The position numbers were made by a program, and so were the translations under genes. Shown in pieces: positions 8,742 to 41,634 of a stretch of 41,634 bases of DNA (positions within the stretch are counted from its first letter, which is position 1; each line of letters starts with the position of its first letter). This DNA is from Candidatus Tantalella remota (GTDB lineage: Bacteria; Omnitrophota; Gorgyraeia; Tantalellales; Tantalellaceae). The notes under the pieces were generated by a model that was given only the letters and a program-made list of their open reading frames with translations, was not told where the DNA came from and ran no database searches. The stretch spans positions 1-41,634 of the forward strand of contig JAVCCB010000009.1 of NCBI GenBank assembly GCA_030765685.1. The letters are read 5' to 3'.

Positions 8742-8758
8742 AGGGAGAGGCGGTCAGT

Positions 8759-9748: not shown

Positions 9749-9753
9749 GAAAC

Positions 9754-11202
9754 ATGGAACACAAACTAAAAATTCTTTTTCAGGAGCCTTTCGTCCCGAA
9801 AAATATCACCTACGGGATGTTCGCCGCAGGCGCCGGGAATAACACCTTTCCGTTCGGGGTGGCCAGCATCGCCGCCTATATCGCTCAACGGGGATATGAT
9901 CCGGAATATCTTGATCCGCAGATCGAAGGCATGTCAGAAGAAAAGTATATCGAATATCTTAAACAAAACACCCCGGATGTGGTAGCGATGGGTTCAACTA
10001 CTCCGCAGATAAAATATACGATACAATGTTTTGAGCTCATCAAACGGTTTTTTCCGGATATCGTAACGGTATTGGGCGGGATACACGCTACCGAAACTCC
10101 GGAGGAGACATTGAACTCGACTGGTTCCATAGATTATATGGTTTTGGGAGAAGGGGAGAAGACATTTTACCAGTTGGCTGAGAAACTGAGTATGGGTCAA
10201 CTTCAGGAGATAGGCAGTCTGTCAGGGGTGGCTTTCAAGTCTTCAGGGCGGGTTATTGTTAACCCGTTCAATGAAGAAGACCGGTTGCCCGAGGAAGAGC
10301 TTCCTACGCCTCTTTTTGAGATCTTCCCCATGGATAAATATGTTGCCCAGGTAACATACGCTAAAACATTTCCGACATACGGTTTGCTGGCTTCCAGGGG
10401 GTGTCCGTACGACTGTGTTTTTTGCGATTCCCACGTGACTACAGGTAAAAAGACCCGGTATAAGCCGGTAGAGACTGTTATAGAAGAGATACGCGTCCTG
10501 AAGGATAAGTATGGCGCCAGAGGTATGATGTTTTTCGACGATACATTCACGGTTAACAGGCAGTGGGTAGAGGATTTTTGCGAGCAATATTCTGATTCCG
10601 GGATAGCTTTGCCGTGGGCATGCAACAGCCGTGTAGATACTTCTGATGCCGGATTGCTGAAGACCATGAAAGACGCGGGGTGCTGGTGCATCCTTTTCGG
10701 TGTGGAATCCGCTAATCAGAAATCCCTGGATATGCTGAAGAAAGGGACTACCGTCAGGCAGAACGAGAAAACATTGCGCGTGGCACTTGAGTTGGGATAT
10801 TATGTGTACACGAGCTATATTCTCGGCCTTCCGGGGGAAGACGAGGAAGACGTGTGTAATACCATAAGATTTGCCAAACGGATAGGGAACCAGCTTTCAC
10901 TCTTTTTTCTTCCCGTTCCGATGCCCGGGACCGAGCTGCAGAAAATAGCGAAGGCAGACGGGGGGCTGAGGGAAGACGCGAAATATGAAGATTATAACCA
11001 GTTCGACTTCGCGGATCCCGTATATGTTAATCCCCTGCTGGGCAGGGAAAAAATGAAGGGTCTTCTAAAAAAAGCCTTCATAGAATTTTACATGACGCCC
11101 GCGGTGATATTAAGGAACCTGAAAGAGCTTATATTGCTTAAGCAAAGCCCGTATAAATTCTGGCAGGGACTTAAAGGCGTGGCCGGCATAACAAAATTAT
11201 AA
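9754..11202 (+). CDS. Cobalamin-binding-type radical SAM protein
   Basis: B12-binding-domain radical SAM protein of about 482 residues. The Rossmann domain (about 1-150) has the typical LGGIHAT and LGEGEKTF segments. The cluster motif is GCPYDCVFC (CxxxCxxC), followed by FFDDTF and FGVESAN, which are characteristic of the BchE/HpnP-like family. A short alpha-helical tail (about 440-482) follows the barrel. The ATG at 9754 (MEHKLKILF) is preferred over an upstream ATG at 9715: it starts right at the first beta strand and lies 5 bases after the preceding stop, implying translational coupling. It is the third gene of the asnB run. The reaction could be methylation, a rearrangement or C-C bond chemistry; nothing in the sequence fixes the substrate. 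Confidence 0.87.
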   Translation: MEHKLKILFQEPFVPKNITYGMFAAGAGNNTFPFGVASIAAYIAQRGYDPEYLDPQIEGMSEEKYIEYLKQNTPDVVAMGSTTPQIKYTIQCFELIKRFFPDIVTVLGGIHATETPEETLNSTGSIDYMVLGEGEKTFYQLAEKLSMGQLQEIGSLSGVAFKSSGRVIVNPFNEEDRLPEEELPTPLFEIFPMDKYVAQVTYAKTFPTYGLLASRGCPYDCVFCDSHVTTGKKTRYKPVETVIEEIRVLKDKYGARGMMFFDDTFTVNRQWVEDFCEQYSDSGIALPWACNSRVDTSDAGLLKTMKDAGCWCILFGVESANQKSLDMLKKGTTVRQNEKTLRVALELGYYVYTSYILGLPGEDEEDVCNTIRFAKRIGNQLSLFFLPVPMPGTELQKIAKADGGLREDAKYEDYNQFDFADPVYVNPLLGREKMKGLLKKAFIEFYMTPAVILRNLKELILLKQSPYKFWQGLKGVAGITKL

Positions 11203-11229
11203 AGAACGGGCGGAGATGGACAATGGGAC

Positions 11230-18347: not shown

Positions 18348-19776
18348 GATAAGCCACAAAATCATCATCTTTTGTAGATATTTTCTCTTGCCGGAAGACC
18401 ATGTCAATGAGACCCCTAAATTTTCTTTTAAACTCCGAGAAGGACCGGATATTCAGTGAGGATCTCCACAGAAATCCGGACCTGGTGTAAAAACTTAAAT
18501 ATGCCCATCGGGCTAAACGATCTATATCGGGATTAGAAAGATCCGTCCACGGACGCGGTAGCGACCGATCGGTCTCTTTACCCAAGACCCAGTCTTTCCA
18601 GTAATCCTTACCTGTTTCTCGTACCATCTGGTCCCACAAAGGGGTCAGTGGCTTAGCCAGACATTTAGAGAACTGTACATAATCAAGGTCCAGCTCTCTG
18701 GCAAACTTAACGGTTTTTTTTATGGTCTCTGTTGTTTCTCCAGGAGCGCCTATAAGGAAGAACCCTAGAGTCTTAATGCCCAAAGCTTTTGTCGAGGTCA
18801 CCGCATCCCGGATTTGTCCCAGCGTTATACCTTTGTTGATCCTGTCCAATATCTCCTGAGACCCGGATTCTATGCCGTAATATATTCTTCCGCAACCGGC
18901 ATCTTTCATCAGGCGCAGGAGATCCGTATCTATTCCTATTCTGGAGCGACAGGCCCAAAGGATGTCGAGTCCACGGTTCAATATCTCTTGGCATATATTC
19001 ATTGTCCGGTCTTTATCTATCGTGAAATCATAATCGAAGATATCTATTTCCCGGATACCGTATTTATGATAACATTCTTCCATCTCGTTCACCACGGTCA
19101 TTACGCTGCGGGGATTATATTCTGTTCCGCCGGCTTCACAAAAACTGCAGGTAAAAGGACAGCCCAGGCTGGTAACCATTACTGTAAAATTTTTGCGTTC
19201 TGTGGGAAATTCGGCGTAAAGGTGGTTTGGCAGAAGATTCCTGGCGGGGGAGGGGAACTTGTCGAAATCTACAGGATTAACAGGCGTAAGCTTTATCTGT
19301 CCGTTTTCTTTGTACGCCAGCCCGGGGACATCTTTAAAATGGCACGTGCCCTCGAGAGCAGAGAAGAGTCCGGGGATGGTCTCAAGAGCATGTTCGATGA
19401 CGCCGAAATCTATTTCAGGATGGATGAGGGATTCTTCGGGATATACGCGGAGATTATATCCACCCACGACCACGGGTACATCCAGTGCTTTTTTGAGATA
19501 TTTTATCCATTCCAGGGTTTCCGGGAACATATAAGTCGTCATGGTGAACCCGATGATGTCGGGATCGAACGCCCGTAGACGCTTGAGGGTTTCCTCTTTG
19601 GTAAGCTCCAGAGTTCTGGCGTCTACTATGGTAACGTCATGTCCGGCTTCGCGTGCGATAGCCGCGGTCCAGGCCAGCCCCATGGGAGGGAACATTCCGA
19701 AGTATTTTTGGACAATACGGATATTCTCTTCGTGGACCTTGTATTTGAAAGGATTAAAAACTCCCGCGAACCTCAT
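18340..19776 (-). CDS. Cobalamin-binding-type radical SAM protein
   Basis: 478-residue B12-domain radical SAM protein, first gene of a three-gene minus-strand operon. Residues 1-150 are the B12-binding Rossmann domain (VVVGGYN and a GVIEHA segment in place of the usual GEGE). The cluster motif GCPFTCSFC gives the CxxxCxxC triad near residue 205; FDYDFTID and YGIESGS follow as in BchE/HpnP-like proteins. A C-terminal region (about 390-478) rich in Trp and Arg is additional to the barrel. The start is supported by AGGAG nine bases upstream and by a good promoter (19825-19852). Being coupled to two TMTC-like membrane glycosyltransferases suggests that it modifies the lipid carrier, the sugar or the acceptor used by them. 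That is inference from context only. Confidence 0.87.
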   Translation of the reverse strand: MRFAGVFNPFKYKVHEENIRIVQKYFGMFPPMGLAWTAAIAREAGHDVTIVDARTLELTKEETLKRLRAFDPDIIGFTMTTYMFPETLEWIKYLKKALDVPVVVGGYNLRVYPEESLIHPEIDFGVIEHALETIPGLFSALEGTCHFKDVPGLAYKENGQIKLTPVNPVDFDKFPSPARNLLPNHLYAEFPTERKNFTVMVTSLGCPFTCSFCEAGGTEYNPRSVMTVVNEMEECYHKYGIREIDIFDYDFTIDKDRTMNICQEILNRGLDILWACRSRIGIDTDLLRLMKDAGCGRIYYGIESGSQEILDRINKGITLGQIRDAVTSTKALGIKTLGFFLIGAPGETTETIKKTVKFARELDLDYVQFSKCLAKPLTPLWDQMVRETGKDYWKDWVLGKETDRSLPRPWTDLSNPDIDRLARWAYLSFYTRSGFLWRSSLNIRSFSEFKRKFRGLIDMVFRQEKISTKDDDFVAYHE

Positions 19777-26182: not shown

Positions 26183-29095
26183 GTGACGGGCAGAAAGAAT
26201 AAAAAAATTCAGGGCAGAAAGAACTTGAGAAGGTTTTTGACGGCAGGAGTGTGTTTTCTCCTGGTGTCATTTTTTCTTACCGGAGGAGTCCTTGCGCAGG
26301 ATGAGGGCAAAGAAATACACCGTCTTTTGGACAGCGCCATGGACAATCTTTCCGAAGGCAGATACACAAGCGCGCAGGAGGACGCCCGGAAAGTGCTGGT
26401 TTTTGAGGAAGATAATCTTGTAGCCAAAGAGATACTCGAGGATGCCGCGAAAGAAAAGGCCGAAGCTGACCTGAAGAGGCAGGCCGAAGAATATGCCCGA
26501 CGAATGATCCGCGAAGAAAAGCCGACGCCTGTGCCGGTCGATCGAAATGCCAGAAAACGCGCCGAGCAGGTAACCACGTATCTCGAGCAGGCGCAGAAGG
26601 CGGCGGATGCGCAGGAGTTTGACAAGGCCCGAAAATACGCCCAGAAAGCGTCCGAGGCGGATCCTGAAAACCCTGCCGCGGTCCAGATGCTGGACAATTT
26701 ACAGGCGGCAGAAGCTATTTTCACGGCGGAGCAGGCACATCAGACCGAAGAAGAAGAGAAAAGAAAGATGCTCAAAGATGCCCGGGCAGAAGCGGAGGAG
26801 CAGGCTCAAAAAGAGAGGGTAACGGCACAAAAGGTTTCTCATTACGTCGCAAAATCCAGAGAATATCTTTCCAGAGGAGATTACAACAACGCCAGAAAAT
26901 ACGCATACAAGGCTCAGGTCGAAAGTCCTACCGATAGCGAGACGCTTACCCTTCTTACCGACATAGCCCAGGAAGAACTTTTTGGACCCCGTGAAAAGGA
27001 AGCTGTCTCTCAGGCAAAGGGAGTGCAAAAGGCCATAGAAGAAGATCAGAAGAGAGGAGACCCCTTCCACTCGCATGACGAGCCTAAGGGGTGGATAGAC
27101 CATATTAAAGACATCTTCACGCCGAGAAAATTCTCTTTAGGAGAAGTGCGGGAAGGCAAGGTCTATACGATAGACGAATGTGTCAACATAGCGATGAACA
27201 GAAGCCAGCGAAAGATAATGGCGGATCAGCAGGTAAAACTTGCCGAGATGAGGGTGTGGGAGACGCGCAGGGATCTTTTTCCTGAGATCACGGCTGTGGC
27301 AGAGCTATCAGAGGGAAAAGTCGGAGGTAATAACTATCAGAGGCATTATCGGGGGCAGAATTACAAGGTAGAGGTCAAGCAGACCGTTTTTGACGGGATG
27401 GGAACATGGTTCGAACTGAGACAGTCGCAGACAAACCTTGATATAGTGAAACTGGAGAGGGAAAAGATCCTGAATGAGATCGTTGAGGATACGAAAAAAG
27501 CGTACTATAGCCTGGACAAGACTAACAAAGCTCTTGTTATGCAGATGCGAAACCAGGAAACGGTCGAACGCTTCTACGGTATGATGGAAAAAGCGCATGA
27601 AGACGAACTGGTTTCCACGGTAAACTATCTTAATGTCAAGGGGCAGAACCTGCAGGCGGACTTTCAGCTTACCTCAGCGGAAGAGGACGTTAAGCTTGCT
27701 AAGATGATACTTTTTCAGGTGATGAACATGGAGCCGGAGGAAGCGATCAATATAAAACCGGTAGAAAGGCCGCAGGAGAAGCTTTCCATAGGGCTGGAAA
27801 ACTGTTACGAGCTCGCGCTGGCGAACCGGCCGGATTTTAATGTAAAGAAAAAGACCATCGAGTATTACGATTTTGAGAGAAAGATGATGAAGGCGAAGGG
27901 CTGGCCCAAAATAGATTTCCATGGTTCTTTCGGCGCCGCTAAGGAAAATTACAGGCCGCTCTTTCTGGACGCGGATCATACCTCTGACCTTTCCGGTTCT
28001 CCGAACAGGGCCGGCAGGGTGTTCGAACCCGAATGGTTCGCCGGAGTAAAAGGGAGCTGGTCATTTTTTGGGAACACTCTGGAATACAATTATGTGAAAG
28101 AAAAATGGGCGCCGACAGTCTCGTCGTTTCGCGGATCGGAAAGTATTACCAGCTATTATACGGTTAAATTCCTTGATGACCTCAAGTATTTTTCCAATCT
28201 GCAGGAATCAAAAGTAGGGTTTGAAAGAGCCAAATATGAATACCTTAAGGCGAAAAAAGATCTTCTTGTAGAGGTTAAGGAGCTGTATTTTAAGTTCAGG
28301 AAAGCCTTGCTTCTTATGGATGTGGCGGATGCCAAATATGTTCATCAGCAGATGTACCTGGACGTTCTTACGGAAAGGCTGCGTTTCGGTGAGTGGGATA
28401 TCCCCAAGATAGTGGAAGAGTATAACAAGCTTATAGAAAGCGAACACGCGGTAATAGCCGGCGACAGCGACTACTATATCTCGCTGATACAGCTAAATCA
28501 GGCAATCGGGATCTCAGATTATTTCAAGCCCGGTTATGAAAATACAGAATACAAGGAATGGGTGGACGCGCGAGATACGCGAAACGATGCGGAAAAATAC
28601 GCTAATGCCCGGTTGGTGGAAGAGGAAATGGTTCAGGTAAACTCGGAAAAAATAAGCGATTATCTGTTTCGCGCACAAAGAGAGATAGACAAGAACAGGT
28701 TTGCCCAGGCAAGAAAGTATGTTAATCGGGCGCTTGAGCTGGACGAGAACAGCAGTTCCGCCGCCGAGATGCTTGACCGGATAGACGAGGCGGAAGCGGT
28801 AGATAACGAAGCCAGGGAGCAGGAAGAAGAGACCGAAAATATAGCCGCGCAGGAAAAGGCGATCGTTAACCAGGCGGAAGAGTACGCCAGGCGGATGATC
28901 AAAGAGGAGAAACTCCACAGACAGCGGCAGGATATCGTCCAGGGGGCCCTGGAAGTGTCCAGGGAGGCTCTTAAGCGCGGGGACGTAGAGAAGGCGCGGG
29001 AATATGCCGGAAAAGCGTTGAGCATCGATCCGGATAATGCTGAGGCGCAGCAGCTTATGGATAAGGCGGACAAAGCCGCGAGCGGAAAGCAATAA
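26183..29095 (+). CDS. TolC-like outer-membrane channel protein with TPR modules at both ends
   Basis: 970 residues from GTG 26183 (GGGG upstream). Residues 1-38 are a signal peptide (cleavage near VLA/QDE). Residues about 45-265 hold three TPR-like/coiled-coil modules rich in Ala, Glu and Lys. Residues about 328-775 are the outer-membrane efflux (TolC) domain, beginning with the typical YTIDECVNIAMNRS and with long paired helices. Residues about 778-970 again carry TPR-like modules. A motif AEEYARRMI(R/K)EEK occurs near residue 101 and again near 898, showing that the two flanks are related. TolC is normally about 450 residues without such flanks. It opens the efflux operon, 16 bases before the adaptor gene. 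The channel would span outer membrane and periplasm, with both TPR arms probably in the periplasm. Confidence 0.85.
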   Translation: MTGRKNKKIQGRKNLRRFLTAGVCFLLVSFFLTGGVLAQDEGKEIHRLLDSAMDNLSEGRYTSAQEDARKVLVFEEDNLVAKEILEDAAKEKAEADLKRQAEEYARRMIREEKPTPVPVDRNARKRAEQVTTYLEQAQKAADAQEFDKARKYAQKASEADPENPAAVQMLDNLQAAEAIFTAEQAHQTEEEEKRKMLKDARAEAEEQAQKERVTAQKVSHYVAKSREYLSRGDYNNARKYAYKAQVESPTDSETLTLLTDIAQEELFGPREKEAVSQAKGVQKAIEEDQKRGDPFHSHDEPKGWIDHIKDIFTPRKFSLGEVREGKVYTIDECVNIAMNRSQRKIMADQQVKLAEMRVWETRRDLFPEITAVAELSEGKVGGNNYQRHYRGQNYKVEVKQTVFDGMGTWFELRQSQTNLDIVKLEREKILNEIVEDTKKAYYSLDKTNKALVMQMRNQETVERFYGMMEKAHEDELVSTVNYLNVKGQNLQADFQLTSAEEDVKLAKMILFQVMNMEPEEAINIKPVERPQEKLSIGLENCYELALANRPDFNVKKKTIEYYDFERKMMKAKGWPKIDFHGSFGAAKENYRPLFLDADHTSDLSGSPNRAGRVFEPEWFAGVKGSWSFFGNTLEYNYVKEKWAPTVSSFRGSESITSYYTVKFLDDLKYFSNLQESKVGFERAKYEYLKAKKDLLVEVKELYFKFRKALLLMDVADAKYVHQQMYLDVLTERLRFGEWDIPKIVEEYNKLIESEHAVIAGDSDYYISLIQLNQAIGISDYFKPGYENTEYKEWVDARDTRNDAEKYANARLVEEEMVQVNSEKISDYLFRAQREIDKNRFAQARKYVNRALELDENSSSAAEMLDRIDEAEAVDNEAREQEEETENIAAQEKAIVNQAEEYARRMIKEEKLHRQRQDIVQGALEVSREALKRGDVEKAREYAGKALSIDPDNAEAQQLMDKADKAASGKQ

Positions 29096-29111
29096 ACGTT
29101 GGAGGAGCGAT

Positions 29112-30353
29112 ATGGGAGATAATGAGAAAAAAGACGTTCTTGGGGAACTCAGGGGCAAAATAGAAGGTTACATAAAAAAGATAGATATTGCCCGGATAAA
29201 ACAGTCTGTAAAAGAACTGGACATGAAAAAAATAGATCCGGCAAAGATCAAGAAGAACTACATATGGATATTGCTGGGTATCCTGATATTGACATTTGTC
29301 CTGGCTCGGACAGTAGGCAAGATCAAGCAGGTGATCTTCGGCGCGGGCAAGGAAGAAAAAGAGATGGTGGAATTTATGGAAACCACCCCGGTAAAGGTAT
29401 ATAAGGTCAAGAGGATGGATTTTAAGGATACGCTTCCCGTCATGGGGAGGATAGAAGGATTTAAAGAGATAGATCTCCGGTTTGACGGAAAAGGCATTCT
29501 GGAAAGCTTCAACTTCGAAGAGGGAGAACGAATACTTGAAGGGGATATCATTGCCAGCCTGGACCAGAAGGACGCGCTTCTGAAACTAAAGTATGCCAGT
29601 CTTGAACTGGAAAAATCCAAGGCGCTTTACGACTTGGGCGGGATAGACAAAATAGCCGTGGAACAGAAAAAACTGGAGTATGAATCTGCCAAAAGAGATC
29701 TCGAAAAAACCAACATCTATGCTCCGAGTGACGGCTATCTCGGGAGCAAGGAAAAAAACGCGGGAACCTTTATAACTTCGCAGGACAAGATAGGCGTTTT
29801 TGTGGATTTCAGCGAGGTGTATGCCTCCTTCGACGTTATAGAAGAAGATTCTCCCAAGATGGAACTGGGGCAGACCGCGGAAATATTCCTGGACGCGTAT
29901 CCGGGAACAAGCTATTCCGGGACGGTTGATATGGTGGCGCCTATGATAGAGGGCAGGACCCGGACACAAAAAATAAAAATTGAACTTAACAACGACGAGA
30001 ATGAGCTTAAGCCGGGGATGTTCGCCCGGGCTATCATCAATACGTATGAGAAGAAAGACGCGCTGATAATACCGGCGTCTTCATTCAAGAAGCAGGAAAA
30101 TCAGTATTTCGTTTATGTGGTCCATCCGGAGGAAGTAGAGGACGCCGAGGGAGATGAGGAGCCGGTCGAAGCGGACGGTGTCGGCGTAGGCATAGTGGAG
30201 GAAAGAGAAATAGAGATAGAATATCTGACCCACGATGTGGCGGAGATAGCCAAGGGGCTGGAGGAAGGCGAACTCATAATTCGTGAACTTCATCAGGAAT
30301 ATAAGGATCAAGATAAGGTCGAGATCACCGAGGTGCAGGAGACGCTTTTTTAG
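29112..30353 (+). CDS. RND efflux adaptor (membrane-fusion protein)
   Basis: 413-residue periplasmic adaptor of the HlyD/AcrA family. The start at 29112 has GGAGGAG at 29101-29107; a longer frame from 29037 overlaps the previous gene and is rejected. Unlike AcrA it has a charged N-terminus of about 50 residues (repeated helix with IDIARIK / IDPAKIKK) before one membrane helix (about 52-68), so it is anchored rather than lipid-modified. Next come the barrel-sandwich/lipoyl half (VMGRIEGFKEIDLRF), a short helical hairpin (about 150-200), the second lipoyl half (YAPSDGYLGSKEKNAGTFI) and beta-barrel and membrane-proximal domains. An acidic insert (EDAEGDEEPVEADG) sits near residue 345. It would link the TolC-like channel to the pumps encoded downstream. 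Confidence 0.9.
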   Translation: MGDNEKKDVLGELRGKIEGYIKKIDIARIKQSVKELDMKKIDPAKIKKNYIWILLGILILTFVLARTVGKIKQVIFGAGKEEKEMVEFMETTPVKVYKVKRMDFKDTLPVMGRIEGFKEIDLRFDGKGILESFNFEEGERILEGDIIASLDQKDALLKLKYASLELEKSKALYDLGGIDKIAVEQKKLEYESAKRDLEKTNIYAPSDGYLGSKEKNAGTFITSQDKIGVFVDFSEVYASFDVIEEDSPKMELGQTAEIFLDAYPGTSYSGTVDMVAPMIEGRTRTQKIKIELNNDENELKPGMFARAIINTYEKKDALIIPASSFKKQENQYFVYVVHPEEVEDAEGDEEPVEADGVGVGIVEEREIEIEYLTHDVAEIAKGLEEGELIIRELHQEYKDQDKVEITEVQETLF

Positions 30354-30567
30354 CAGGGAGCGAGGAGCAGGGAGCTAGGAGGCAGGAGCGGGGAGCTTGG
30401 AGCGGGGAGCTTGGAGCAGGGAGCGGGGAGCAGGGAGCGGGGAGCAGGGAGCAGGGAGCTTGGAGCAGGGAGCGGGGAGCAGGGAGCGGGGAGCAGTGGG
30501 CAGGGAGCTTGGAGCAGGGAGCAGGGAGCAGTGGGCAGGGAGCTTGGAGCGGGGAGTTTGGAGCTTA
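30354..30567 (+). repeat. G-rich 7-base tandem repeat array
   Basis: About 30 degenerate heptamers, mostly gggagca, gggagct, gggagcg and tggagca, starting right after the adaptor stop codon. The plus (sense) strand has runs of three to four Gs spaced by about four bases throughout, which fits G-quadruplex-forming sequence. Open frames through it are low-complexity artefacts. Heptameric arrays of this type resemble the short tandemly repeated repetitive (STRR) sequences described in cyanobacteria. Confidence 0.85.
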
Positions 30568-30604
30568 CAGGGGAGAACTCTCTTGAAAAGAAAAACACAA
30601 ATCT

Positions 30605-30690: not shown

Positions 30691-33600
30691 ATGGGATTAC
30701 CGGAATTTTCCACCAGGAAACCAGTTACCACCGTCATGATATTCGCGGGAGTAATGCTATTCGGAATAATTTCACTTATGAAACTTCCGCAGGAGCTGTT
30801 TCCTCCTATAACGTACCCCCAGCTTACCGTTTTTACAGGCTACGCTAACGCCGCCCCGGTAGAGATCGAGACATTGCTTACAAAACCCGTTGAAGAAGCC
30901 GTCGGTACGGTAAGCGGCCTTAAGTCTGTAAAATCCATATCCAAAGAAGGTGTGTCACTTGTCATCGCCGAGTTTGACTGGGACCAGAACATGGATTTCG
31001 CGTCGCTCAGGACAAGGGAAAAAGTCGACCTTATCAAGGCTCGCCTGCCGCGTGATGCCACCGAACCCCTGGTCGTGCCGTTCAATCCTTTTGAACTTCC
31101 GATAATGACGATAAGCGTTACGGGTAACAGGACCCCGACGCAGTTAAGGCAGATAGCGATCGATACCATAAAGGAAGAACTGGAAAAGATAGACGGGGTA
31201 GCTTCAGCGTCCGTAGAGGGAGGGCTGGAACGGGAAATATTGATAGAGGCAAATCAGGGGAAACTGAAGACATACGACGTTTCGATCCTGGACATCTCAG
31301 ACGCTATAACCAACGCTAACCTTAATTATCCGGCCGGCACTATAAAAGAAAGTTTCTACGAGTATCTCATACGTACGCTCGGTGAGTTCCAGGATGTGAG
31401 CGAGATAGGGGGAGTGGTCGTTAAGAACAGGGCAGACGAACAGGACCGGGGGATCCCCTTCGAGCAGAAACTGAAGGAAAGAAAAATAAGTGAAGAGGCA
31501 AACCTGGTTCTCATAAAAGATGTGGCGGATGTAAAAGATACCTTCAAAGAGCGTACCAGCCATTCCAGATATAACACCAAAGAGAATATCTCTATCTCCA
31601 TACAGAAACAGGCGCAGGCGAACACTATGCAGGTCATAAACAATATCAGAGGAGCGTTCCCGCAGCTGAAGAAAATACTCCCGAAAGATATAAAAATGGA
31701 GGTAGTGTATGACCAGTCTATTTTTATCCGGGACGCTATCAATGGCGTGAGAGACGCCGCGGTCCAGGGAGGGGTTCTTGCTTTTCTGGTGCTCTTAGTG
31801 TTTCTCCGCAGTGTAAAGTCCTCTGCTATAGTTACTTTGAGCATACCGATATCCGTCATGATAGTTTTTACTTTCATGTATTTCGGGGGACTCTCGATAA
31901 ATATGATGTCTCTCGGAGGGTTGGCCCTGGGGGTAGGCATGCTTGTTGACAATGCCATAGTCGTTATGGAAAATATTTTTCGGCATAGAGAGATGGGGAA
32001 ACCTCCGGAAAAGGCCGCCACGGACGGCGCGGAGGAAGTATCGAACGCTATCGTAGCATCCACGCTGACCACCATCGCGGTTTTTCTTCCCATGATATTC
32101 GTTGTAGGTGTCGCCGGCCAGTTGTTCAAGGAGTTGGCGTTTACCGTTACCTTTTCCCTGATAGGGTCTTTGTGGGTAGCCTTGACGCTAATACCTCTTC
32201 TCAGCTGTAAACTCGGCGGAGGCGAAGAAGAAGCCGCCAAGGGAGCCGCAGCTTTTTCCGGAGGGGAGAAATGGCAGAAGATAGTAATAAAATATGAAGA
32301 GCTTCTCCGAAAATTTTTAGAGCATAAAAAAATAGGACTTTTTATAGTGCTGATGATATTCATTATGAGCCTTTTTATATTTAATGTTCTGGAAAAAGAG
32401 CTTATGCCGAAAACGGACCAGGGGCAGTTTATCGTCAACATCGATATGCCTGTAGGTACAAAGCTTTCGGAAACCAATAAGGTAATGCTGAAGATAGAGG
32501 ACGTTATACATGAGCATCCCGACGTGGAGAGCATGAGCGCCGTCCTCGGATCTACCGGGGGAGACGCGGCTAAGGACATAGTAAAAAGACTTGGAGCCCA
32601 CCAGGGGCAGCTTATCGTCACCTTGAAAGAAAGACGAAAGAATAAGACAACGGATATAGTCCAGGAGCTTCGGGCAACGGTCGACGAAGACAGATCTTTC
32701 AACAATGTGAGTGTAGATTTTGCTTTGCAGCAAAGCGTTATCTCCGGGGCGTTCGGGGGTGGGGGCAGGCCTATAACCGTTGAGATAAAAGGGGAAGAGC
32801 TTATCGTGATGGAAAAAATAGCCCGCGAGATAGAAAGAGAGCTAAACTCCATCAAGGGCATATTCGGGATAGAAGACGATGTTCCGGAACCGTCACCGGA
32901 AGTAAGAATAACTATAGACAAGGACAAGGCGTCGCTGTACGGCATATCCGTGGTCGACCTGGCGAGGATAGCGCAGATGGTGATGCGCGGATATATCCCG
33001 TCCCAGTTTAAGGAGGAAGGAAGAGAGATCGACATCCGAGTCAGGCTCAGGGAAGAGGACAGAGACTCTTATGAGAAACTGTATCGCATAATGATAAGCG
33101 CGCCCATAGGCGGGATGATACCGTTAGGTACCGTTGCCGCGTTCGAGAGAGGAAAAGGTCCCAGTGAGATCAAAAGACTCGGACAGGAGCGGACGATAAC
33201 GGTCTCGGCCAATGTCGTAGACAGAAAACTGTCGGACGTGATGGCGGATGTTGAAAAGATGATAGGAGGCCTGGAACTGGAAAGCGGATACGTGGCGGAA
33301 CTCACGGGAGAATCCGAGGAAATGAAGAAGTCGTTTAACAGCCTTCAGTTTGCCATGATACTTTCTATCGTCATGGTCTATATGATCATGGCCGCGCAGT
33401 TTGAATCGCTTACCCAGCCGCTTATAATACTCTTTACGGTGCCATTATCTCTCATTGGTGTTCTGTTAGCGCTGTTCGCCACAAGCACTTCTGTCAATGT
33501 AGTTGCTTTTCTGGGGATCATAATGTTGGGGGGGATCGTAGTTAATAATGGTATTGTGCTGATAGACTACACCAATATCCTGATAAAGAACGGTAAAAGC

Positions 33601-33849
33601 GTGATGGACGCTGTCGTAGAAGCCAGCCTTGCCAGGCTGAGGCCGATCATAATGACAGCTTTGACCACAGTTCTGGGTCTTTTCCCGATGGCCCTTGCAG
33701 TGGGCAGGGGCGCTGAACTCCGGGCACCCATGGCAATAAGCGTTATGGGAGGGCTGGTGGTATCGACTTTTCTTACCCTTGTTGTCATACCGTCGATCTT
33801 CATCGTAGAGAACGACATAAGGAACAAGGTCATAAGCTATTTTAAATAG
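30691..33849 (+). CDS. RND-family efflux pump, inner-membrane transporter
   Basis: 1052-residue transporter of the AcrB/HAE1 type: N-terminal helix, first periplasmic porter loop, helices 2-6 (from about residue 355), second loop (about 560-880) and helices 8-12. The helix-4 motif is GMLVDNAIVVMEN with D420 and N421, so of the AcrB proton-relay Asp pair (D407/D408) only the first is present. The helix-10 segment GGIVVNNGIVLIDYTN has Asn where AcrB has Lys940. Both substitutions are common in RND pumps outside the Enterobacteria. A ribosome site is not obvious in front of the ATG, and the heptamer repeats intervene between it and the adaptor. Substrate unknown. Confidence 0.92.
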   Translation: MGLPEFSTRKPVTTVMIFAGVMLFGIISLMKLPQELFPPITYPQLTVFTGYANAAPVEIETLLTKPVEEAVGTVSGLKSVKSISKEGVSLVIAEFDWDQNMDFASLRTREKVDLIKARLPRDATEPLVVPFNPFELPIMTISVTGNRTPTQLRQIAIDTIKEELEKIDGVASASVEGGLEREILIEANQGKLKTYDVSILDISDAITNANLNYPAGTIKESFYEYLIRTLGEFQDVSEIGGVVVKNRADEQDRGIPFEQKLKERKISEEANLVLIKDVADVKDTFKERTSHSRYNTKENISISIQKQAQANTMQVINNIRGAFPQLKKILPKDIKMEVVYDQSIFIRDAINGVRDAAVQGGVLAFLVLLVFLRSVKSSAIVTLSIPISVMIVFTFMYFGGLSINMMSLGGLALGVGMLVDNAIVVMENIFRHREMGKPPEKAATDGAEEVSNAIVASTLTTIAVFLPMIFVVGVAGQLFKELAFTVTFSLIGSLWVALTLIPLLSCKLGGGEEEAAKGAAAFSGGEKWQKIVIKYEELLRKFLEHKKIGLFIVLMIFIMSLFIFNVLEKELMPKTDQGQFIVNIDMPVGTKLSETNKVMLKIEDVIHEHPDVESMSAVLGSTGGDAAKDIVKRLGAHQGQLIVTLKERRKNKTTDIVQELRATVDEDRSFNNVSVDFALQQSVISGAFGGGGRPITVEIKGEELIVMEKIAREIERELNSIKGIFGIEDDVPEPSPEVRITIDKDKASLYGISVVDLARIAQMVMRGYIPSQFKEEGREIDIRVRLREEDRDSYEKLYRIMISAPIGGMIPLGTVAAFERGKGPSEIKRLGQERTITVSANVVDRKLSDVMADVEKMIGGLELESGYVAELTGESEEMKKSFNSLQFAMILSIVMVYMIMAAQFESLTQPLIILFTVPLSLIGVLLALFATSTSVNVVAFLGIIMLGGIVVNNGIVLIDYTNILIKNGKSVMDAVVEASLARLRPIIMTALTTVLGLFPMALAVGRGAELRAPMAISVMGGLVVSTFLTLVVIPSIFIVENDIRNKVISYFK

Positions 33850-33938: not shown

Positions 33939-36900
33939 ATGAGCTTATCCCGATTTTCTATCTTAAGGCCGATAACGACGATCATGATATTCGCCGCTTT
34001 ATCGCTTATGGGGATCATTTCCATTACCCGCCTTCCGGTGGAATTGTACCCGGATATATCTTTCGGCCAGATCAGCATAATCATATATATACGGGGAGGG
34101 ATCCCTCCGACCGAGGTAGAATCGATGGTGACAAGGCCTATAGAAGAGGCTGTCAGTACGGTTTCCCACCTTGAGAGAATATTGTCCATATCCAAAGAAG
34201 GTGAAGCAACGGTCGTCCTGAGCTTTGAGAGAGGCATAGATATGCAGCTCGCGGCGATGGAGGTCAGGGAAAAATTCGCCAAAGTTAAAGAACAAATGCC
34301 CAAAGAGGCGGAAAAGCCCATTATAGCTCAGTTTTCTCAGACGGATGTGCCTATAGTTATTTTCGCGCTGACGAGCAGGAAGCGCACGACCGAAGAGTTG
34401 CGTCGGATGGTCGATGAAAAAGTGAAAGAAAGGGTCAAGAGGATCAATGGTGTCGCTAATGTTGAGGTCGGCGGCGGCAGAGAAAGAAAGATAATAGTAG
34501 AGGTGGATAAAAAGGCGTTGTACAGATATGCCGTATCCATAAACCGACTTATTTCGGCACTGGGGTCCAATAATCTGAACCTGCTTACCGGACAGCTTGA
34601 AAGGAGAAAGGATAAGGTCCTTATTCGGGCTATAGGGCAATTTGTAGATGTGGACGACATAAAGGACACAGTCGTTTTAACCCGGCCGGACGGGTCAGCG
34701 GTGAGAGTAAAGGACCTTGCCGATGTCAAGGATTCTTACCTTGAACCAAAGACATACGCGAGAATAAACATAAAGCCCATAGTGTCGGTATACGTTCAGA
34801 AAGAGTCCAAGGCAAATACCATCAGCGTGGCGGAAAAGATATTAAGTGAAGTTGAGAAAATAAAGACACTGGTGCCCGAGGACATTGAGGTCGTCGTTAC
34901 CAAAAACCAAGCGGAGTTTATCAGCACATCGATCTCCAACCTTCGTGATTCGCTTTTGCGCGGTGCTGCCATGATCATATTCATCCTCATGCTGTTCATG
35001 GGGAAATTCGGCAAGAAAGCGTCTGTTATTGTTCCCGCGGGTCTTCTGGTGTCGATGTTCGCGCCCAGCATCGCGCTCTACCTCCTACTGGTAGGGCTTA
35101 TCCTGTTCCTTGCTCTTTTTAAGAACTACCGGCCTATACTGATCGTAGCCATGTCTATACCTATATCCCTGATCATAACCTTTGGATTTATGGACCTGTC
35201 CAATATGATGGTTCCGGGAATAATGGATCTGACGATAAACTTTATAACCTTATTCGGTCTCGCGCTTGGTGTCGGTATGCTTGTTGATAACTCCATAGTT
35301 GTTTTTGAGAACATCGTTACAAAAAGCGAACAGGGCATGACCAGGGTGGACGCGGCTATCGAAGGTAGTACGGAAATGAACGTTGTTATTTTCGCGTCCA
35401 CGTTGACCACCGTAATAGTTTTTCTCCCTATGCTTTTTGTAAGCAAATCAATGAGCTTGTTGTACGGCGGTGTCGCGTGGACCGTAACGTTCTCACTGTG
35501 CGTCTCACTTTTTGTGGCACTTATGATAGTCCCGCTTATGAGCTCGCGAATACAGATCGTATCCAAGGGAGGTGAATCAGAGCAAGTAAAAGAAGGGTTT
35601 CTCCGGCCTTTTTACAGGCTCCAGCAGGCGGCACTTCTTTTCACTTTCAGGAGAAGGTTCCAGGCGGTAACACTGGCTGTTATATTATTCCTTATTGCAG
35701 GGTATGTTTACGGGACAATGGGGAAAGAATATCTGGGAACGACAGAACAGAGCAAGTTCACGGTATTTATTGAACTTCCCACGGGGGCGAAGCTGGACGC
35801 AAGTGACGATATAGTGAGGGAAGTGGAAGCTATTTTGCAGGAAGTCCCCGAGGTCGATGAGTTTACCGCAAGAGTTGAGGCTTGGTCGAGCAAGATATAT
35901 GTCAATCTGGTGCCTCTTAAGAGCAGGCAAAGGTCGGTGGGCGAGGTCATAGAAAGCTTGAGACCAAAAGTGCAGCGCCTTCAACCGGCTTTCATCTACT
36001 TTGAGGAAGAGCAGGAAGTCGGTACCAAAGAGATCATACTCAACATATTCGGTTATGATTATGATATTTTGAGGGAAATAGCGATCGCAATAACGACTCG
36101 TATGGGGCAGATACCCTATTTTACCGATACGAAGATAAGGATGCGCGAGGGACGGCCGGAACTTGATCTTAGGGTTGACAGAAAAAAAAGCGCTCAATTC
36201 GGGTTTTCTACAAAAGAAGTCGCCGATATGGTGCACGCCAAGGTGAGGGGTGTTCGCGCAACTATGTATCACACAAAGGCTTCTGAAGTTGAGACGATAG
36301 TAAGGATGCAGGAGAAAGACCGGAGGACTGTAAAAGATATACATGCCCTTACGGTGTCACGTTTCGGAGATGACAGGGCGACCCTGGACCAGATGGTTGA
36401 TTTTGAATATGGATTGGGTCCCAGCGAAATATGGCGCAAAAACAGAGCAAGGATGATACAAGTCAGCGCTAATATCGGTGATCTTCCTTTAAGTAAAGCA
36501 GTTAGCATCCTAGAGGACAAAATGTCTGATATGAAGCTGCCCGAAGACTATTTTTACGAAGTTGGAGGGGATTATGAGACGTTACTTAAGACGCAGCAGG
36601 AGTTTTTGCTGACGATCGTAGTGATCGTGGCCCTCATATACCTGGTACTGGCATCCATATTCGAGTCGTACAGGCAGCCGTTCATTATTATGGTAACTGT
36701 TATGCTTGCTACAGTTGGAGCTGTCGCCGCCCTGTATTTTACGAAAACTTCCATAGGGATGGGGGCTCTTATAGGACTTATGATGCTGGCTGGTATAGTC
36801 GTAAATAACGGGATTATACTTGTAGATCATGCAAATGAGCTCAAGAAACATCGCCATAACCTCTACAGACTCCTTCTTCAGGCGGCGGGAGACAGATTGA

Positions 36901-37229
36901 GGCCGGTTTTGATGACTACAGCAACGACTGTTTTCGGACTATTGCCTATGGCTCTTGATAAAAGTGAAGGCTCTAACCTGTGGAATCCTTTAGCAATAAC
37001 TGTTATTGGTGGACTTTTGTTCGCTACGCCGCTCACTCTAGTGCTGGTTCCCGCAATATATTCGATATTTGAGCAATTTGGCCAGATCGTGAAAGAGTCC
37101 TTAAGGCCCCGTAATCTCTGGAATATGTCCACAAAAGCCTTTAAATTCTCCATAAATGTGGTAAAACACATCAAGATTCCTAAATTCAGGAAAAAACCTC
37201 CTCCAGATGAAGAAAAAGACGATATTTAG
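33939..37229 (+). CDS. Second RND-family efflux pump, unusual helix 2-3 region
   Basis: 1096-residue RND transporter, a paralogue of the pump 89 bases upstream. Landmarks: N-terminal helix with LRPITTIMIF, helix 4 GMLVDNSIVVFEN (D450/N451), helix 10 GIVVNNGIILVDHAN and a charged C-terminal tail (about 1050-1096, ending PPDEEKDDI). Between helix 2 and helix 3 there are about 40 extra residues (about 356-397) that are hydrophobic and look like a second copy of the surrounding FLMLF...PxLIVxxxIPxSLI pattern; the first pump lacks it. The pair of pumps behind one adaptor and one channel may form a mixed trimer, as MdtB and MdtC do, or act separately. A ribosome site is not clear at this ATG. Confidence 0.9.
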   Translation: MSLSRFSILRPITTIMIFAALSLMGIISITRLPVELYPDISFGQISIIIYIRGGIPPTEVESMVTRPIEEAVSTVSHLERILSISKEGEATVVLSFERGIDMQLAAMEVREKFAKVKEQMPKEAEKPIIAQFSQTDVPIVIFALTSRKRTTEELRRMVDEKVKERVKRINGVANVEVGGGRERKIIVEVDKKALYRYAVSINRLISALGSNNLNLLTGQLERRKDKVLIRAIGQFVDVDDIKDTVVLTRPDGSAVRVKDLADVKDSYLEPKTYARINIKPIVSVYVQKESKANTISVAEKILSEVEKIKTLVPEDIEVVVTKNQAEFISTSISNLRDSLLRGAAMIIFILMLFMGKFGKKASVIVPAGLLVSMFAPSIALYLLLVGLILFLALFKNYRPILIVAMSIPISLIITFGFMDLSNMMVPGIMDLTINFITLFGLALGVGMLVDNSIVVFENIVTKSEQGMTRVDAAIEGSTEMNVVIFASTLTTVIVFLPMLFVSKSMSLLYGGVAWTVTFSLCVSLFVALMIVPLMSSRIQIVSKGGESEQVKEGFLRPFYRLQQAALLFTFRRRFQAVTLAVILFLIAGYVYGTMGKEYLGTTEQSKFTVFIELPTGAKLDASDDIVREVEAILQEVPEVDEFTARVEAWSSKIYVNLVPLKSRQRSVGEVIESLRPKVQRLQPAFIYFEEEQEVGTKEIILNIFGYDYDILREIAIAITTRMGQIPYFTDTKIRMREGRPELDLRVDRKKSAQFGFSTKEVADMVHAKVRGVRATMYHTKASEVETIVRMQEKDRRTVKDIHALTVSRFGDDRATLDQMVDFEYGLGPSEIWRKNRARMIQVSANIGDLPLSKAVSILEDKMSDMKLPEDYFYEVGGDYETLLKTQQEFLLTIVVIVALIYLVLASIFESYRQPFIIMVTVMLATVGAVAALYFTKTSIGMGALIGLMMLAGIVVNNGIILVDHANELKKHRHNLYRLLLQAAGDRLRPVLMTTATTVFGLLPMALDKSEGSNLWNPLAITVIGGLLFATPLTLVLVPAIYSIFEQFGQIVKESLRPRNLWNMSTKAFKFSINVVKHIKIPKFRKKPPPDEEKDDI

Positions 37230-37479
37230 TCTTCGAGAGACGCTCTAAATACCTATCCCTTTTAATTTAAAATCCTTGCACGGATGGGACTGTATATTGT
37301 TTTACAGAATCCCAACATATCGAAATATCCGTACGGAGGCTCACTCTGCACTTAAAGTTATGTGTTATAATAGCTTATGTGAAATTGAAGCAAAGCGCGG
37401 TTGGGGCGACAGTATTTAAGACGAAAAAAGTTAGTTATTTATTAAACATCCCCAAAATACAAAAAAGTGCCAAAAATCA

Positions 37480-37527
37480 GTTAACGGGTGTTAATATTCT
37501 GTTAAGAAATTCTTTTAAAAAGTTAAC
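37480..37527 (+). promoter_or_regulatory. Phased GTTAA boxes, possible activator site
   Basis: GTTAA occurs at 37480, 37490, 37501 and 37522, spacings of 10, 11 and 21 bases, i.e. on one face of the helix. The last box is about 14 bases upstream of the -35 element. Direct repeats about 11 bases apart upstream of a promoter are typical of OmpR/PhoB-type response-regulator sites. Identification of the binding protein is not possible from the window. Confidence 0.45.
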
Positions 37528-37535
37528 TTTAAAAT

Positions 37536-37563
37536 TTGTCTTATATAATATATATGGTATACT
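37536..37563 (+). promoter_or_regulatory. Promoter of the giant repeat-protein gene
   Basis: TTGTCT (37536-37541), a 16-base spacer and TATACT (37558-37563) preceded by TGG, an extended -10. The predicted leader is about 118 bases and ends in two or three 7-base repeats (37663-37683). Confidence 0.5.
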
Positions 37564-37662
37564 TATATTGGCGTGTGTAAGGGGCGTGTGAACTAAAATT
37601 AACATTTTTTTCGAACCTCAAGTAAATTGTTTCAAAAAGTATTAAAGTTTGCCCAACAAAAG

Positions 37663-37683
37663 TGCTGGTAGCTGGTAGGTGTA
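37663..37683 (+). repeat. Short heptamer repeats at the translation start
   Basis: tgctggt, agctggt, aggtgta: two to three 7-base units ending five bases before the ATG at 37688. The GGTAGGTG within them is the only candidate ribosome binding site. Confidence 0.4.
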
Positions 37684-37687
37684 AAAA

Positions 37688-40600
37688 ATGAGTGCCGACG
37701 GTGAAAAACTAAAATATACTAATAATAATAACAATCACTCTTCGGGTGTGTTCTATGCTCCTGAGGAGGATTTGCTCAGCCCTATAAGGATCATTGAGCT
37801 GAGATCCAATAAAACGAAAAGGATGTGGCTTAAGGTCATATCCTTTTTTGTTTCTTTTGTCTTCCTTTTTCAGCAGATAGGTTATTCCGACGTTTACCGT
37901 CACAAGAGACTGGGCGGTGTCGCCGAAGAGCTGCTGCCTTCCTCCGGCGAGTATGACCAGACCAACCGGTTCGCCCCGGCTTATTTGAAACGCCTGCAGT
38001 CCAAGCACGAAGAGATCGTACGCCAGAGAATGGGGAAAGAAGAACTCATCGGACAATTACGCCGTAAACCCCGTGGAGGCGAGGTCGAAGACGCGCCCCT
38101 CAAAAAGAAACGCGGTAGCGGCGGAGAAGGCGGTGGAAAACCGCCGGAATACACTCTCACCGAACCGGATGACATCGAAGATCCGCATCAATACAATGAC
38201 CTCGAGTATGAGGATGAGGCACTCAGCCAGATCGATACGTTTGACATAACAAAACGTCCGGACATCAAGATAGAGCATTGGAAGACCACAGCAGACGAAA
38301 AGACCGAAGATAAAACGGGGGTGAAGTACTGGGTCGGTTACGAGGACGATAGCGGACCGCCAGAGAGCCGAAAAATAAAAGAAGTCATATATTTTGGGGA
38401 TAAAGAGAGTGAAAAGATAAAGAAAGTATTTTCAGGTTATGTTGAGGATCCCACTACCGGCGAGTATGTACCGAAGTTCCGGACGGAATATGAGTACTCC
38501 GGCGAAGCGATAACAAAAATGACGAAATACTACATCTGGGGCACAGACGAAGATGATCCGAACGCCCCGGTCGTGGAAGAGTCATTTTTCGAAGGTACGG
38601 GAGAGGACAATAAGATTTCCAAAAGAATAACCTATGACAAGAACACCGGCAATGAGATCTCGCGTCAGGAGTTCATATACGGAACCGATTCTGACGGCAA
38701 GAAGGCCCTTGAGGAGATGCGCAGCTACGACAAGGAAGACGAATACGATAAAGACGGAGACGGCATCATCGACGCTGAAGAGGATCTGGATAACGACGGA
38801 AAGTTGGGTGAGGATTTTGATTCTGACGGCGACGGAGATATAGACGATGTGAACGGAGACGGGCTCATCGGGACCCTTGGAAGCCGCACTTATTTTATTG
38901 GCGACAGGGACAAAGAAGTAGCGGATTATACCGAGAGTATGTCCAGGGACGGAACGGTTACAGCGACGGTCATAAGCTACTATGAAGGGGGTCAGAGAGC
39001 TGAGGATCTGAAAGATGAGGAATTCGGGTACAGGACACCAAAGGAGCGCGTCGTTACGTACAGGGGAAGCATAGACACAACAGAGACGGACGCGGATGAC
39101 GACGGGATACTTGACGGGCTGGAAAATAAACTCTCCAGCATAGCTTACTATAGCGCTTCGCAAAGACTGCCGGGTGAAGAGGTGCTGGATTATACAGAGA
39201 ATTATGCCAGGGGTAAAGTCGTGCAGACAACGGTGTATTACTACGAGTACGAAGGGACAGAGTACAGAGCTGACGACGCAAACTACAGGGCGCCCATGAA
39301 AAAGTCAGTGACGTACTGGGGCGATGCCGTGGATGCCGACGGGAATGTTGTAGCCGGGGCCAGGGAGAAATCTGTTACTTATTACTTCATTGAAGGACGG
39401 TTGAAGGGTGAAGAAACTTCAGATTACACCATCAGACGCAGCACGCGCGGTGACATCATAAGCACCACTATATATTACTATGAGGGCGACGAAAGGGCGG
39501 AGGATTCAGAGGCGCTTGACAGGATGTCGAAGAGCGTAACGTATCGCGGAGAAGTCGACCCGACGGGAACGGACTCTGACGGTGATGGTGTGCTGGACGG
39601 GGAGGAGAAGAAACTGGCAAGTATAACGTACTATGATTACGCGGACCGGGAGAAGGGAAAAGAGGTCGCGGATTACACGGATAAATACAATACACGCCAG
39701 CAGATCATCGCGACCACGGTATATCTCTATGAATCAGACTTAAGACGCGCCGACGCGACTGGGGACGATGACAGGTTGTCCAGGAGTGTTACTTACAGGG
39801 GAGATGTAGACCAGACCGGGTTAGACGCTGACGGCGACGGTGTGATAGACGGTCATGAAGGAGACCTGGACAGCATAACGTATTATGATTTCGAGACCCG
39901 CCAAAAAGGTGAAGAGGTAATGGACTTCACCGACAAATACAATTCCAGCGGAGATATCGCGACTACCACCGTATACCTGTACGAAACGACCCTCTTGAGA
40001 GCGGAAGACGCGGATTCATATGACAGGATGAGCCGCAGTGTGACGTACCGGGGAGATATCGATGAAACCGGCGTCGATGCCGACGGTAACGGAATAATCG
40101 ACGCATATGAATATGACGGGAGTTCACTGTACAAGGTCGCAAGCATCACGTATTACAATCTCATTTACAGTACGGGTGAAGACCGGGCGAAGGGTGAAGA
40201 GGTGATGGACTATACCGAGAAGTTCAATTCGCGCGCGCAGGTGACAACTACCACGGTGTACCTGTATGAGTCCAGCCTTTCCAGGGCGGAAGATACGGGA
40301 TCTAATGACAGGATGTCGAGAAGTGTGACATATCGCGGGGCAGTGGACACGACTCTGGGCGACGCTGACGGAGACGGGATCATAGACGGGTACGAGCTTG
40401 ATGTTGCCAGTATAACATATTACGATTACGACGGCCGCCTTAAGGGCGAAGAAGTGATGGACTATACCGAGAAGTTCAACTCGAAGGGCAATGTGACACA
40501 GACGACGGTTTATCTTTATGAGGTGGGACTTTTGCGGGCGGGAGCTGCCGAGGCATATGACAGGATGTCGAGAAGCGTGACGTATCGCGGGGCAGTGGAC

Positions 40601-41634
40601 ACGACTCTGGGCGACGCTGACGGAGACGGGATCATAGACGGTTATGAACTCGACGTTGCCAGTATAACATATTACGATTACGACGGCCGCCTCAAGGGTG
40701 AAGAAGTGATGGACTATACCGAGAAGTTCAACTCGAAGGGCAATGTAACTCAAACGACAGTTTATCTCTATGAGGCGGGACTTCAGAGGGCGCAGGACGC
40801 CGATTCAAACGACAGGATGTCGAGAAGCGTTACGTACCGCGGCCAGGTCGACACTAGTGTCGGCGACGCTGACGGCGACGGCATACTTGACGGTTACGAG
40901 ACAGACGTGGCCAGTATAACGTATTACGACTATGACGGCAGGCTCAAGGGCGAAGAAGTGATGGACTATACGGAGAAGTTTAATTCTCGGGGTGACATCA
41001 CTCAGACGACAGTGTACCTCTATGAGTCCACACTTGCGAGAGCGGAAGACGCGGCGGCGGACGACAGGATGTCGAGAAGCGTTACGTACCGCGGTCAGGT
41101 CGATACAACAGTCGGCGACGCTGACGGAGACGGGATACTTGACGGTTATGAGACAGACGTGGCCAGCATAACGTATTACGATTATGACGGCCGCCTCAAG
41201 GGCGAAGAGGTAATGGACTATACCGAGAAATTTAATTCTCGGGGGGATGTAACACAGACGACGGTGTACCTCTACGAGTCCACGCTCGAGAGAGCGGAAG
41301 ACGCCGCGGCGGACGACAGGATGTCGAGAAGCGTTACGTACCGCGGTCAGGTCGATACAACAGTTGGCGACGCTGACGGCGACGGCATACTCGACGGGTA
41401 CGAAACGGATGTGGCCAGCATAACGTATTACGATTATGACGGCCGCCTCAAGGGTGAAGAGGTAATGGACTATACCGAGAAATTTAATTCTCGGGGAGAT
41501 GTAACACAGACGACGGTTTACCTCTACGAGTCGACTCTAGAGAGAGCTGAAGACGCGGCGTCGGATGACAGGATGTCAAGAAGCGTTACGTACCGCGGTC
41601 AGGTCGATACAACAGTTGGCGACGCTGACGGCGA
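37688..41634 (+). CDS. Giant exported repeat protein, 3'-truncated by the window end
   Basis: The frame is open from the ATG at 37688 to the last base (1315 codons, no stop). Residues 1-46 are hydrophilic with an Asn run; residues about 47-64 form a hydrophobic helix ending QQIGYSD, an N-terminally extended signal peptide or anchor. Residues about 70-350 are charged and low in hydrophobics. Around 354-395 come several DxDGDG loops (DKDGDGIID, DNDGKLG, DSDGDGDID). Diverged repeats follow, then from residue 611 regular 84-residue units: SVTYRG, DADGDGILDGYE, SITYYDYDGRLKGEE, DYTEKFNS, TTVYLYE, RAED. The acidic loop matches thrombospondin-3/EF-hand-like calcium loops and the YYDYDGRL part resembles YD repeats. 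Likely a calcium-stabilised surface fibre or adhesin. Very large proteins are known from Omnitrophota. Function is inferred. Confidence 0.85.
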   Translation, partial: MSADGEKLKYTNNNNNHSSGVFYAPEEDLLSPIRIIELRSNKTKRMWLKVISFFVSFVFLFQQIGYSDVYRHKRLGGVAEELLPSSGEYDQTNRFAPAYLKRLQSKHEEIVRQRMGKEELIGQLRRKPRGGEVEDAPLKKKRGSGGEGGGKPPEYTLTEPDDIEDPHQYNDLEYEDEALSQIDTFDITKRPDIKIEHWKTTADEKTEDKTGVKYWVGYEDDSGPPESRKIKEVIYFGDKESEKIKKVFSGYVEDPTTGEYVPKFRTEYEYSGEAITKMTKYYIWGTDEDDPNAPVVEESFFEGTGEDNKISKRITYDKNTGNEISRQEFIYGTDSDGKKALEEMRSYDKEDEYDKDGDGIIDAEEDLDNDGKLGEDFDSDGDGDIDDVNGDGLIGTLGSRTYFIGDRDKEVADYTESMSRDGTVTATVISYYEGGQRAEDLKDEEFGYRTPKERVVTYRGSIDTTETDADDDGILDGLENKLSSIAYYSASQRLPGEEVLDYTENYARGKVVQTTVYYYEYEGTEYRADDANYRAPMKKSVTYWGDAVDADGNVVAGAREKSVTYYFIEGRLKGEETSDYTIRRSTRGDIISTTIYYYEGDERAEDSEALDRMSKSVTYRGEVDPTGTDSDGDGVLDGEEKKLASITYYDYADREKGKEVADYTDKYNTRQQIIATTVYLYESDLRRADATGDDDRLSRSVTYRGDVDQTGLDADGDGVIDGHEGDLDSITYYDFETRQKGEEVMDFTDKYNSSGDIATTTVYLYETTLLRAEDADSYDRMSRSVTYRGDIDETGVDADGNGIIDAYEYDGSSLYKVASITYYNLIYSTGEDRAKGEEVMDYTEKFNSRAQVTTTTVYLYESSLSRAEDTGSNDRMSRSVTYRGAVDTTLGDADGDGIIDGYELDVASITYYDYDGRLKGEEVMDYTEKFNSKGNVTQTTVYLYEVGLLRAGAAEAYDRMSRSVTYRGAVDTTLGDADGDGIIDGYELDVASITYYDYDGRLKGEEVMDYTEKFNSKGNVTQTTVYLYEAGLQRAQDADSNDRMSRSVTYRGQVDTSVGDADGDGILDGYETDVASITYYDYDGRLKGEEVMDYTEKFNSRGDITQTTVYLYESTLARAEDAAADDRMSRSVTYRGQVDTTVGDADGDGILDGYETDVASITYYDYDGRLKGEEVMDYTEKFNSRGDVTQTTVYLYESTLERAEDAAADDRMSRSVTYRGQVDTTVGDADGDGILDGYETDVASITYYDYDGRLKGEEVMDYTEKFNSRGDVTQTTVYLYESTLERAEDAASDDRMSRSVTYRGQVDTTVGDADG
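39518..41634 (+). repeat. 252-base tandem repeats inside the giant gene
   Basis: Counting from the conserved GACAGG, units begin at 39518, 39770, 40022, 40307, 40559, 40811, 41063, 41315 and 41567. Every interval is 252 bases except 40022-40307, which is 285 because of 11 extra codons. The first units differ at many positions while those from about 40811 onward are nearly identical, and the array continues beyond the window. In-frame spacing keeps the 84-residue protein unit intact. Confidence 0.95.

Follow-up and report, generated by a model that had tools for sequence, protein, structure and literature searches.

The giant gene and its neighbourhood

The window analysed here, 41,634 bp of DNA from Candidatus Tantalella remota, is the complete contig C52 of a 2.0-Mb genome in 96 contigs. 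On its forward strand, a gene for a giant protein starts with the ATG at 37688 and runs to 41632, giving 1,315 codons without a stop, and the frame continues past the contig end at 41634. Since the window is the whole contig, it is the assembly that cuts the gene. An earlier sequence-only reading had pointed out this long stop-free frame, and our analysis bears it out; in shuffles of the same DNA that kept its composition (n=200), the longest stop-free run had a mean of 114 codons and a maximum of 239.

Upstream, on the same strand, lie genes for an outer-membrane efflux protein (OEP, TolC type) with TPRs (26183 to 29095), an HlyD/CusB-type membrane fusion protein (29037 to 30353) and two RND pumps (ACR_tran), of which pump 1 occupies 30691 to 33849 and pump 2, directly upstream of the giant gene and in the same order in relatives, occupies 33939 to 37229. 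RND genes were found directly upstream of the giant gene at 17 of 37 loci, belonging to several families of the class, and the linkage is real, but the cluster is absent upstream in G251, G203, G016, G159 and G097 (loci with at least 5 kb of upstream sequence). RND systems are not known to secrete proteins, and we therefore do not propose these pumps as the exporter of the giant protein. The A+T-rich intergenic region before the giant gene (37230 to 37687, 33% GC) may contain its promoter; a promoter scan of this region gave scores no better than those of shuffles. Elsewhere on the contig, a short G+C-rich tandem repeat with periods of 14, 21, 35 and 49 bp lies at 30352 to 30598, between the HlyD-type gene and RND pump 1, and a B12-binding/radical-SAM and SPASM radical-SAM cluster with an asparagine-synthase-like enzyme lies at 77 to 11202 and 18340 to 19776, adjoined by genes for large TPR proteins.

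The first ~150 residues of the giant protein lie outside the repeat and comprise a signal-like segment and a linker. The signal-peptide-like segment (residues ~44-67, 37817 to 37888, forward strand) reads KRMWLKVISFFVSFVFLFQQIGYS, with the cleavage site, placed by eye, before the following D, and is conserved in alignments with the relatives; a long N-rich n-region precedes it in the window protein, and this region is short in the relative G033. The K-rich linker (residues 68-154, 37889 to 38149, forward strand) is predicted to be disordered or loosely helical, with an AF2 pLDDT <50 across model residues 1-88 of a model of residues 62-700. It is followed by a degenerate YD-like beta region (residues 155-539, 38150 to 39304, forward strand), assigned from the AF2 model, Foldseek matches to Rhs/teneurin shells (E 6e-12) and a unit HMM, and interrupted at about residues 354-395 by an acidic insert rich in D. 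Matches to the unit HMM begin at about residue 352, the array thus fading upstream into degenerate units.

The repeat array and its predicted fold

From residue 540 to the contig end (39305 to 41632, forward strand), tandem-repeat analysis, unit mapping and AF2 delimited a regular array of 84-residue repeats. TRF detected a 252-bp period at 40190 to 41631 (5.7 copies, 86% matches), and units of exactly 84 residues begin at residues 616, 700, 879, 963, 1047, 1131 and 1215, together with irregular units of 95 residues at residue 784 and 76 residues at residue 540, so that the regularity noted in the sequence-only reading is confirmed. The motif YDYDGR is present in five units and [YF]NSxG[DN] in six, and the array is rich in D (14%), T (11%) and Y (10%), with no Cys and nearly no Pro or Trp. 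Between units, dN/dS was 0.01-0.13 (pairs with defined dS); for example, the last two complete units differ by 19 synonymous changes and 1 nonsynonymous change. As the differences are mostly synonymous, it is the translated sequence that is under selection, and the array is under strong purifying selection. Exact repeats of 60 bp or longer were absent from the array, indicating that the part in the window is not a collapsed repeat.

A calcium-type loop, D-x-D-x-D-G-x-x-D-x-x-E or a close variant, occurs in 11 complete copies in the ORF, for example as DSDGDGVLDGEE at 39572 to 39607 (forward strand), with further loops at residues 354, 468, 713, 797, 892, 976, 1060, 1144 and 1228. After residue 500, eight complete loops were found versus 0.014 expected from residue shuffles. 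The loops have the generic calcium-loop pattern, with ligands at positions 1, 3, 5, 9 and 12 and Gly at 6, and from this pattern alone we infer that they may bind calcium. They had been described as thrombospondin-3/EF-hand-like, of which the calcium-ligand pattern stands and the family assignments do not: the TSP3_bac profile scored 18.1 bits at 39572 to 39613, under its curated cut-off of 25, and in the AF2 model the loop connects strands 1 and 2, its sole helical element being a 3-residue turn, and no helix-loop-helix surrounds it. A full TSP3-like stretch (28.3 bits) was found downstream in a relative, on contig C91 of G004. In the wider family, the loop is complete in 57 of 194 units; absent from most of them, it is thus added to a YD-like core rather than being a defining half of the unit. 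The loop is an optional insert at strands 1-2 that has been expanded in the genus of the window and a neighbouring genus.

The four-unit AF2 model (window 40322 to 41347, 46-row alignment of the window and relative sequences) is all-β, with 17 strands, a pLDDT of 95.1 and a pTM of 0.89, and the units are predicted with high confidence to adopt a beta fold. In each modelled unit there are four strands, each about 8 residues long; strands 1 and 2 are connected by the calcium-type loop, and strand 4 leads into the following unit through a second loop, RAEDAAADDRMSR. The lower-confidence model of residues 62-700 (pLDDT 72) is unstructured to about residue 150 and continuously β thereafter.

The best PDB matches of the four-unit model in Foldseek were Rhs effectors, teneurin YD shells and Tc B/C (E 8e-8), and the model of residues 62-700 likewise matched Rhs and teneurin shells; OspA and MORN-type single-layer sheets were also matched in the PDB and BFVD. 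TM-scores to the Rhs shells were low, 0.2 or less, suggesting that the local architecture is common to both and that the overall course of the sheet, be it a straight ribbon, a spiral or a cocoon, may differ; a closed-shell shape is not supported. The hybrid of a calcium loop and a YD/RHS-like segment that had been proposed from the letters is therefore supported by the models at the level of local fold. At the level of sequence, RHS_repeat and YD profiles had no match in the window ORF, a comparison in hhalign of the unit profile with a genuine Rhs segment gave no signal, and common descent with Rhs is thus unsupported. Searches of PDB sequences with the array and with its profile gave no match, and scans of the ORF against Pfam, NCBIfam and PHROGs yielded only sub-threshold or repeat-summed noise, in keeping with the earlier remark that no standard family combines these features. 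The unit profile had no match in viral contigs. A match to the gliding protein CglD was rejected (15 bits versus a cut-off of 400).

Relatives and further pieces of the gene

In an N-terminal alignment scan of 84,980 species genomes, all named relatives were Omnitrophota, including Candidatus Omnitrophus magneticus and CG07 and DeMMO2 MAGs. The N-terminus was matched in 59 of 384 genomes of the class (E 1e-3) and, at 1e-20, in 11 of the 19 genomes of the same family. Nearly all family members are broken at contig ends; the frame is open in more than a dozen relatives and broken in G097, G203 and G159. In the closest relative, G011, 19 regular units are present in a protein of 2,956 aa whose frame is again open at the contig end.

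Another contig from this genome, C95 (4,654 bp), consists of a single frame of 1,551 aa open at both ends, in which α-helical repeats are accompanied by degenerate YD-like units and a TSP3-like stretch; RHS_repeat scored 13.9 bits here, versus a cut-off of 22 that was exceeded only in the distant relative G097. C95 aligns to the downstream half, and the window gene to the N-terminal half, of one 2,274-aa frame in G033 (34% over 402 aa), and C95 also aligns to contig C91 of G004. Given its colinearity with downstream sequence of the single G033 ORF, C95 is probably a later piece of the window gene, although it could be a paralogue; if it is the same gene, the product probably has at least 2,866 residues over C52 and C95. 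A search of the smaller contigs of this genome for a C-terminal piece returned C95 only. The suggestion that the product is much longer than the part encoded in the window is supported by C95 and by the lengths of two relatives, 2,956 aa and about 27,000 aa.

The distant relative in G097, on a 235-kb contig, extends from about 36302 to 118336 and shares 112 bits with the window family across the N-terminus. Frameshifts that resemble assembly errors interrupt its first 16 kb; beyond them, a frame of 21,903 codons is intact. Its domains are RHS_repeat (66 bits), Laminin_G_3, F5_F8_type_C and dockerin, with an Ala/Leu-rich region containing 8 hydrophobic segments toward the C-terminus, and its C-terminal 2,778 aa matched no Pfam family. 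Near this C-terminus (G097:C10, L119), the sequence HSHPVMPADE recalls JAB/MPN-type metalloprotease motifs, without a Pfam match. Set against the size of >20 kb used for giant ORFs, the G097 gene measures about 82 kb and the window gene, taken over C52 and C95, encodes 2,866 aa or more, C95 being probably part of the same gene.

Several other large frames were noted. A 42,913-aa ORF in G157, a further member of the class, was rejected as a full-length family member, as only a signal-type N-terminus is in common; this 42,913-codon frame (G157:C2:343474-472212, loci L061-L067) includes a short masked stretch, repeated enzyme-like segments connected by SSSP linkers, and a TM segment near its end. 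In the single-cell genome of Candidatus Omnitrophus magneticus, locus L024 (G009:C372, JYNY01000372.1) carries an inverted duplicate of the giant-gene start (2086-5115, forward; 4914-11369, reverse), which looks like an amplification chimera. Long alpha-helical tandem repeats that match no named family lie inside the same giant proteins at L024 (4914-11369), L025 and L072, for example GNLKTFLEGIDLxxLGITTIEELIEYLKxNAxANGYTEEDV. Further large frames, between 2,965 and 11,472 aa long and containing RHS repeats, either weak or real, are present in G000:C37 (L140), G011:C12 and C17, and G004:C136, C55 and C74, suggesting that there are several Rhs-like giants per genome.

A putative surface fibre and its comparison with known systems

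Taken together, the gene probably encodes a giant surface fibre or adhesin that is exported by Sec and consists of an Rhs-like β-ribbon stapled by calcium. The protein would be exported by Sec through the conserved signal-like segment and then pass to the cell surface, where a flexible linker would lead into a single unbroken ribbon of antiparallel beta-sheet resembling the Rhs/YD (teneurin-shell) type. Every 84-residue unit would contribute two YD-like hairpins (with YDYDGRL and FNSRGDV turns), that is, four strands, and in the part encoded by the window the ribbon edge would be braced by the loop that links strands 1 and 2, where calcium is probably bound once the protein has left the cytoplasm. 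The ribbon may lengthen by unit duplication and be followed by alpha-helical repeats and more YD-like arrays, so as to form a long stalk or coat presenting adhesive domains to other cells or surfaces. We consider such a stalk or coat the most likely form because the ribbon appears to be extended by duplication and glycan-binding-type domains are present in a distant relative. Of the earlier interpretation, a free fibre that is rigidified by calcium and serves attachment or predation is conjectural. A bolder version, which we put forward only tentatively and think rather doubtful, is that the Rhs/YD sheet, in its toxin form a cocoon of fixed size, may have become in Omnitrophota an open-ended ribbon or hollow spiral that is stapled by calcium, thousands of residues long and projecting from the cell.

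The fold matches to Rhs effectors and Tc BC shells, the true RHS repeats of G097 and a giant protein reported from another PVC lineage with Rhs, CglD-type adhesin and carbohydrate-binding regions (PMC12057145) would also suit a giant relative of the Rhs/YD polymorphic toxins, in which a closed beta cocoon surrounds a C-terminal effector aimed at neighbouring cells. However, neither the window ORF nor C95 showed an Rhs-core signature, a closed shell of fixed size would poorly accommodate long calcium loops and interruptions by helical repeats, the thousands of residues exceed the roughly 1,000-1,500 of the Rhs chains among the solved matches, and the C-terminal region of G097 matched no Pfam family; we therefore regard a toxin as unlikely. 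It is improbable, too, that the protein is a periplasmic or envelope scaffold between the membranes, tied to the RND-MFP-OMF complex encoded upstream: although it has a signal-like segment, no outer-membrane anchor was seen (the C-terminus lying beyond the contig end) and the RND linkage recurs across several families, the five loci lacking the cluster and the lectin-like, discoidin and dockerin domains of G097, typical of extracellular proteins, argue against this role. A decaying or artefactual repeat (assembly collapse or pseudogene) with no functional product, which the contig end inside the repeats and the broken frames of three relatives might suggest, is very improbable given the low dN/dS between units, the open frame in other relatives and the lack of long exact repeats.

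Few traits of Omnitrophota genomes are as striking, or as poorly explained, as their giant ORFs. If the bolder version holds, a ribbon or spiral projecting from the cell would add a new class to the giant surface filaments of bacteria. The confidently predicted fold of this widespread repeat family ties part of the dark matter of these ORFs to Rhs/teneurin-type β-sheets. The reading predicts calcium-dependent stability, surface exposure and an elongated shape, and the repeat units are small enough for expression and structure solution.

Among known systems, the Rhs/YD shells of T6SS Rhs effectors, Tc B/C and teneurins (PF05593) share with the window family a strand-turn-strand architecture, tyrosine-rich strands and YDxxGR-type turns. 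The window ORF differs in having no match to their profiles and an 84-residue unit with a calcium-loop insert; moreover, the array of the window family is open and interrupted by helical repeats, and a cocoon is not evident. As to the ~20-residue YDxxGR spacing of the RHS/YD family, YDYDGR motifs occur here, with two hairpins per 84 residues and a long loop separating them. TSP3_bac (PF18884) and dockerin/EF-type loops share the ligand pattern DxDxDGxxDxxE, but the window loop is a half motif that joins two beta strands without the tandem TSP3 wrap, and it lacks the E and F helices of EF-type loops. MORN-repeat proteins and OspA share the single-layer antiparallel beta meander detected by Foldseek, but have other unit lengths and no calcium loops and are far smaller. 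The closest counterparts in phylum and size class, and in adhesion-type domains (those of a relative), are the giant ORFs of Omnitrophota treated in a survey (PMC10066038), the accessible part of which describes a 39,678-aa protein in V. archaeovorus and adhesin-type ones in Omnitrophia, interprets those with discoidin and laminin-G domains as adhesins, states that few annotated domains in most giant ORFs obscure their functions, and makes no mention of an 84-residue repeat. Giant ORFs in this phylum were thus known previously, and what is new here is the repeat and its fold.
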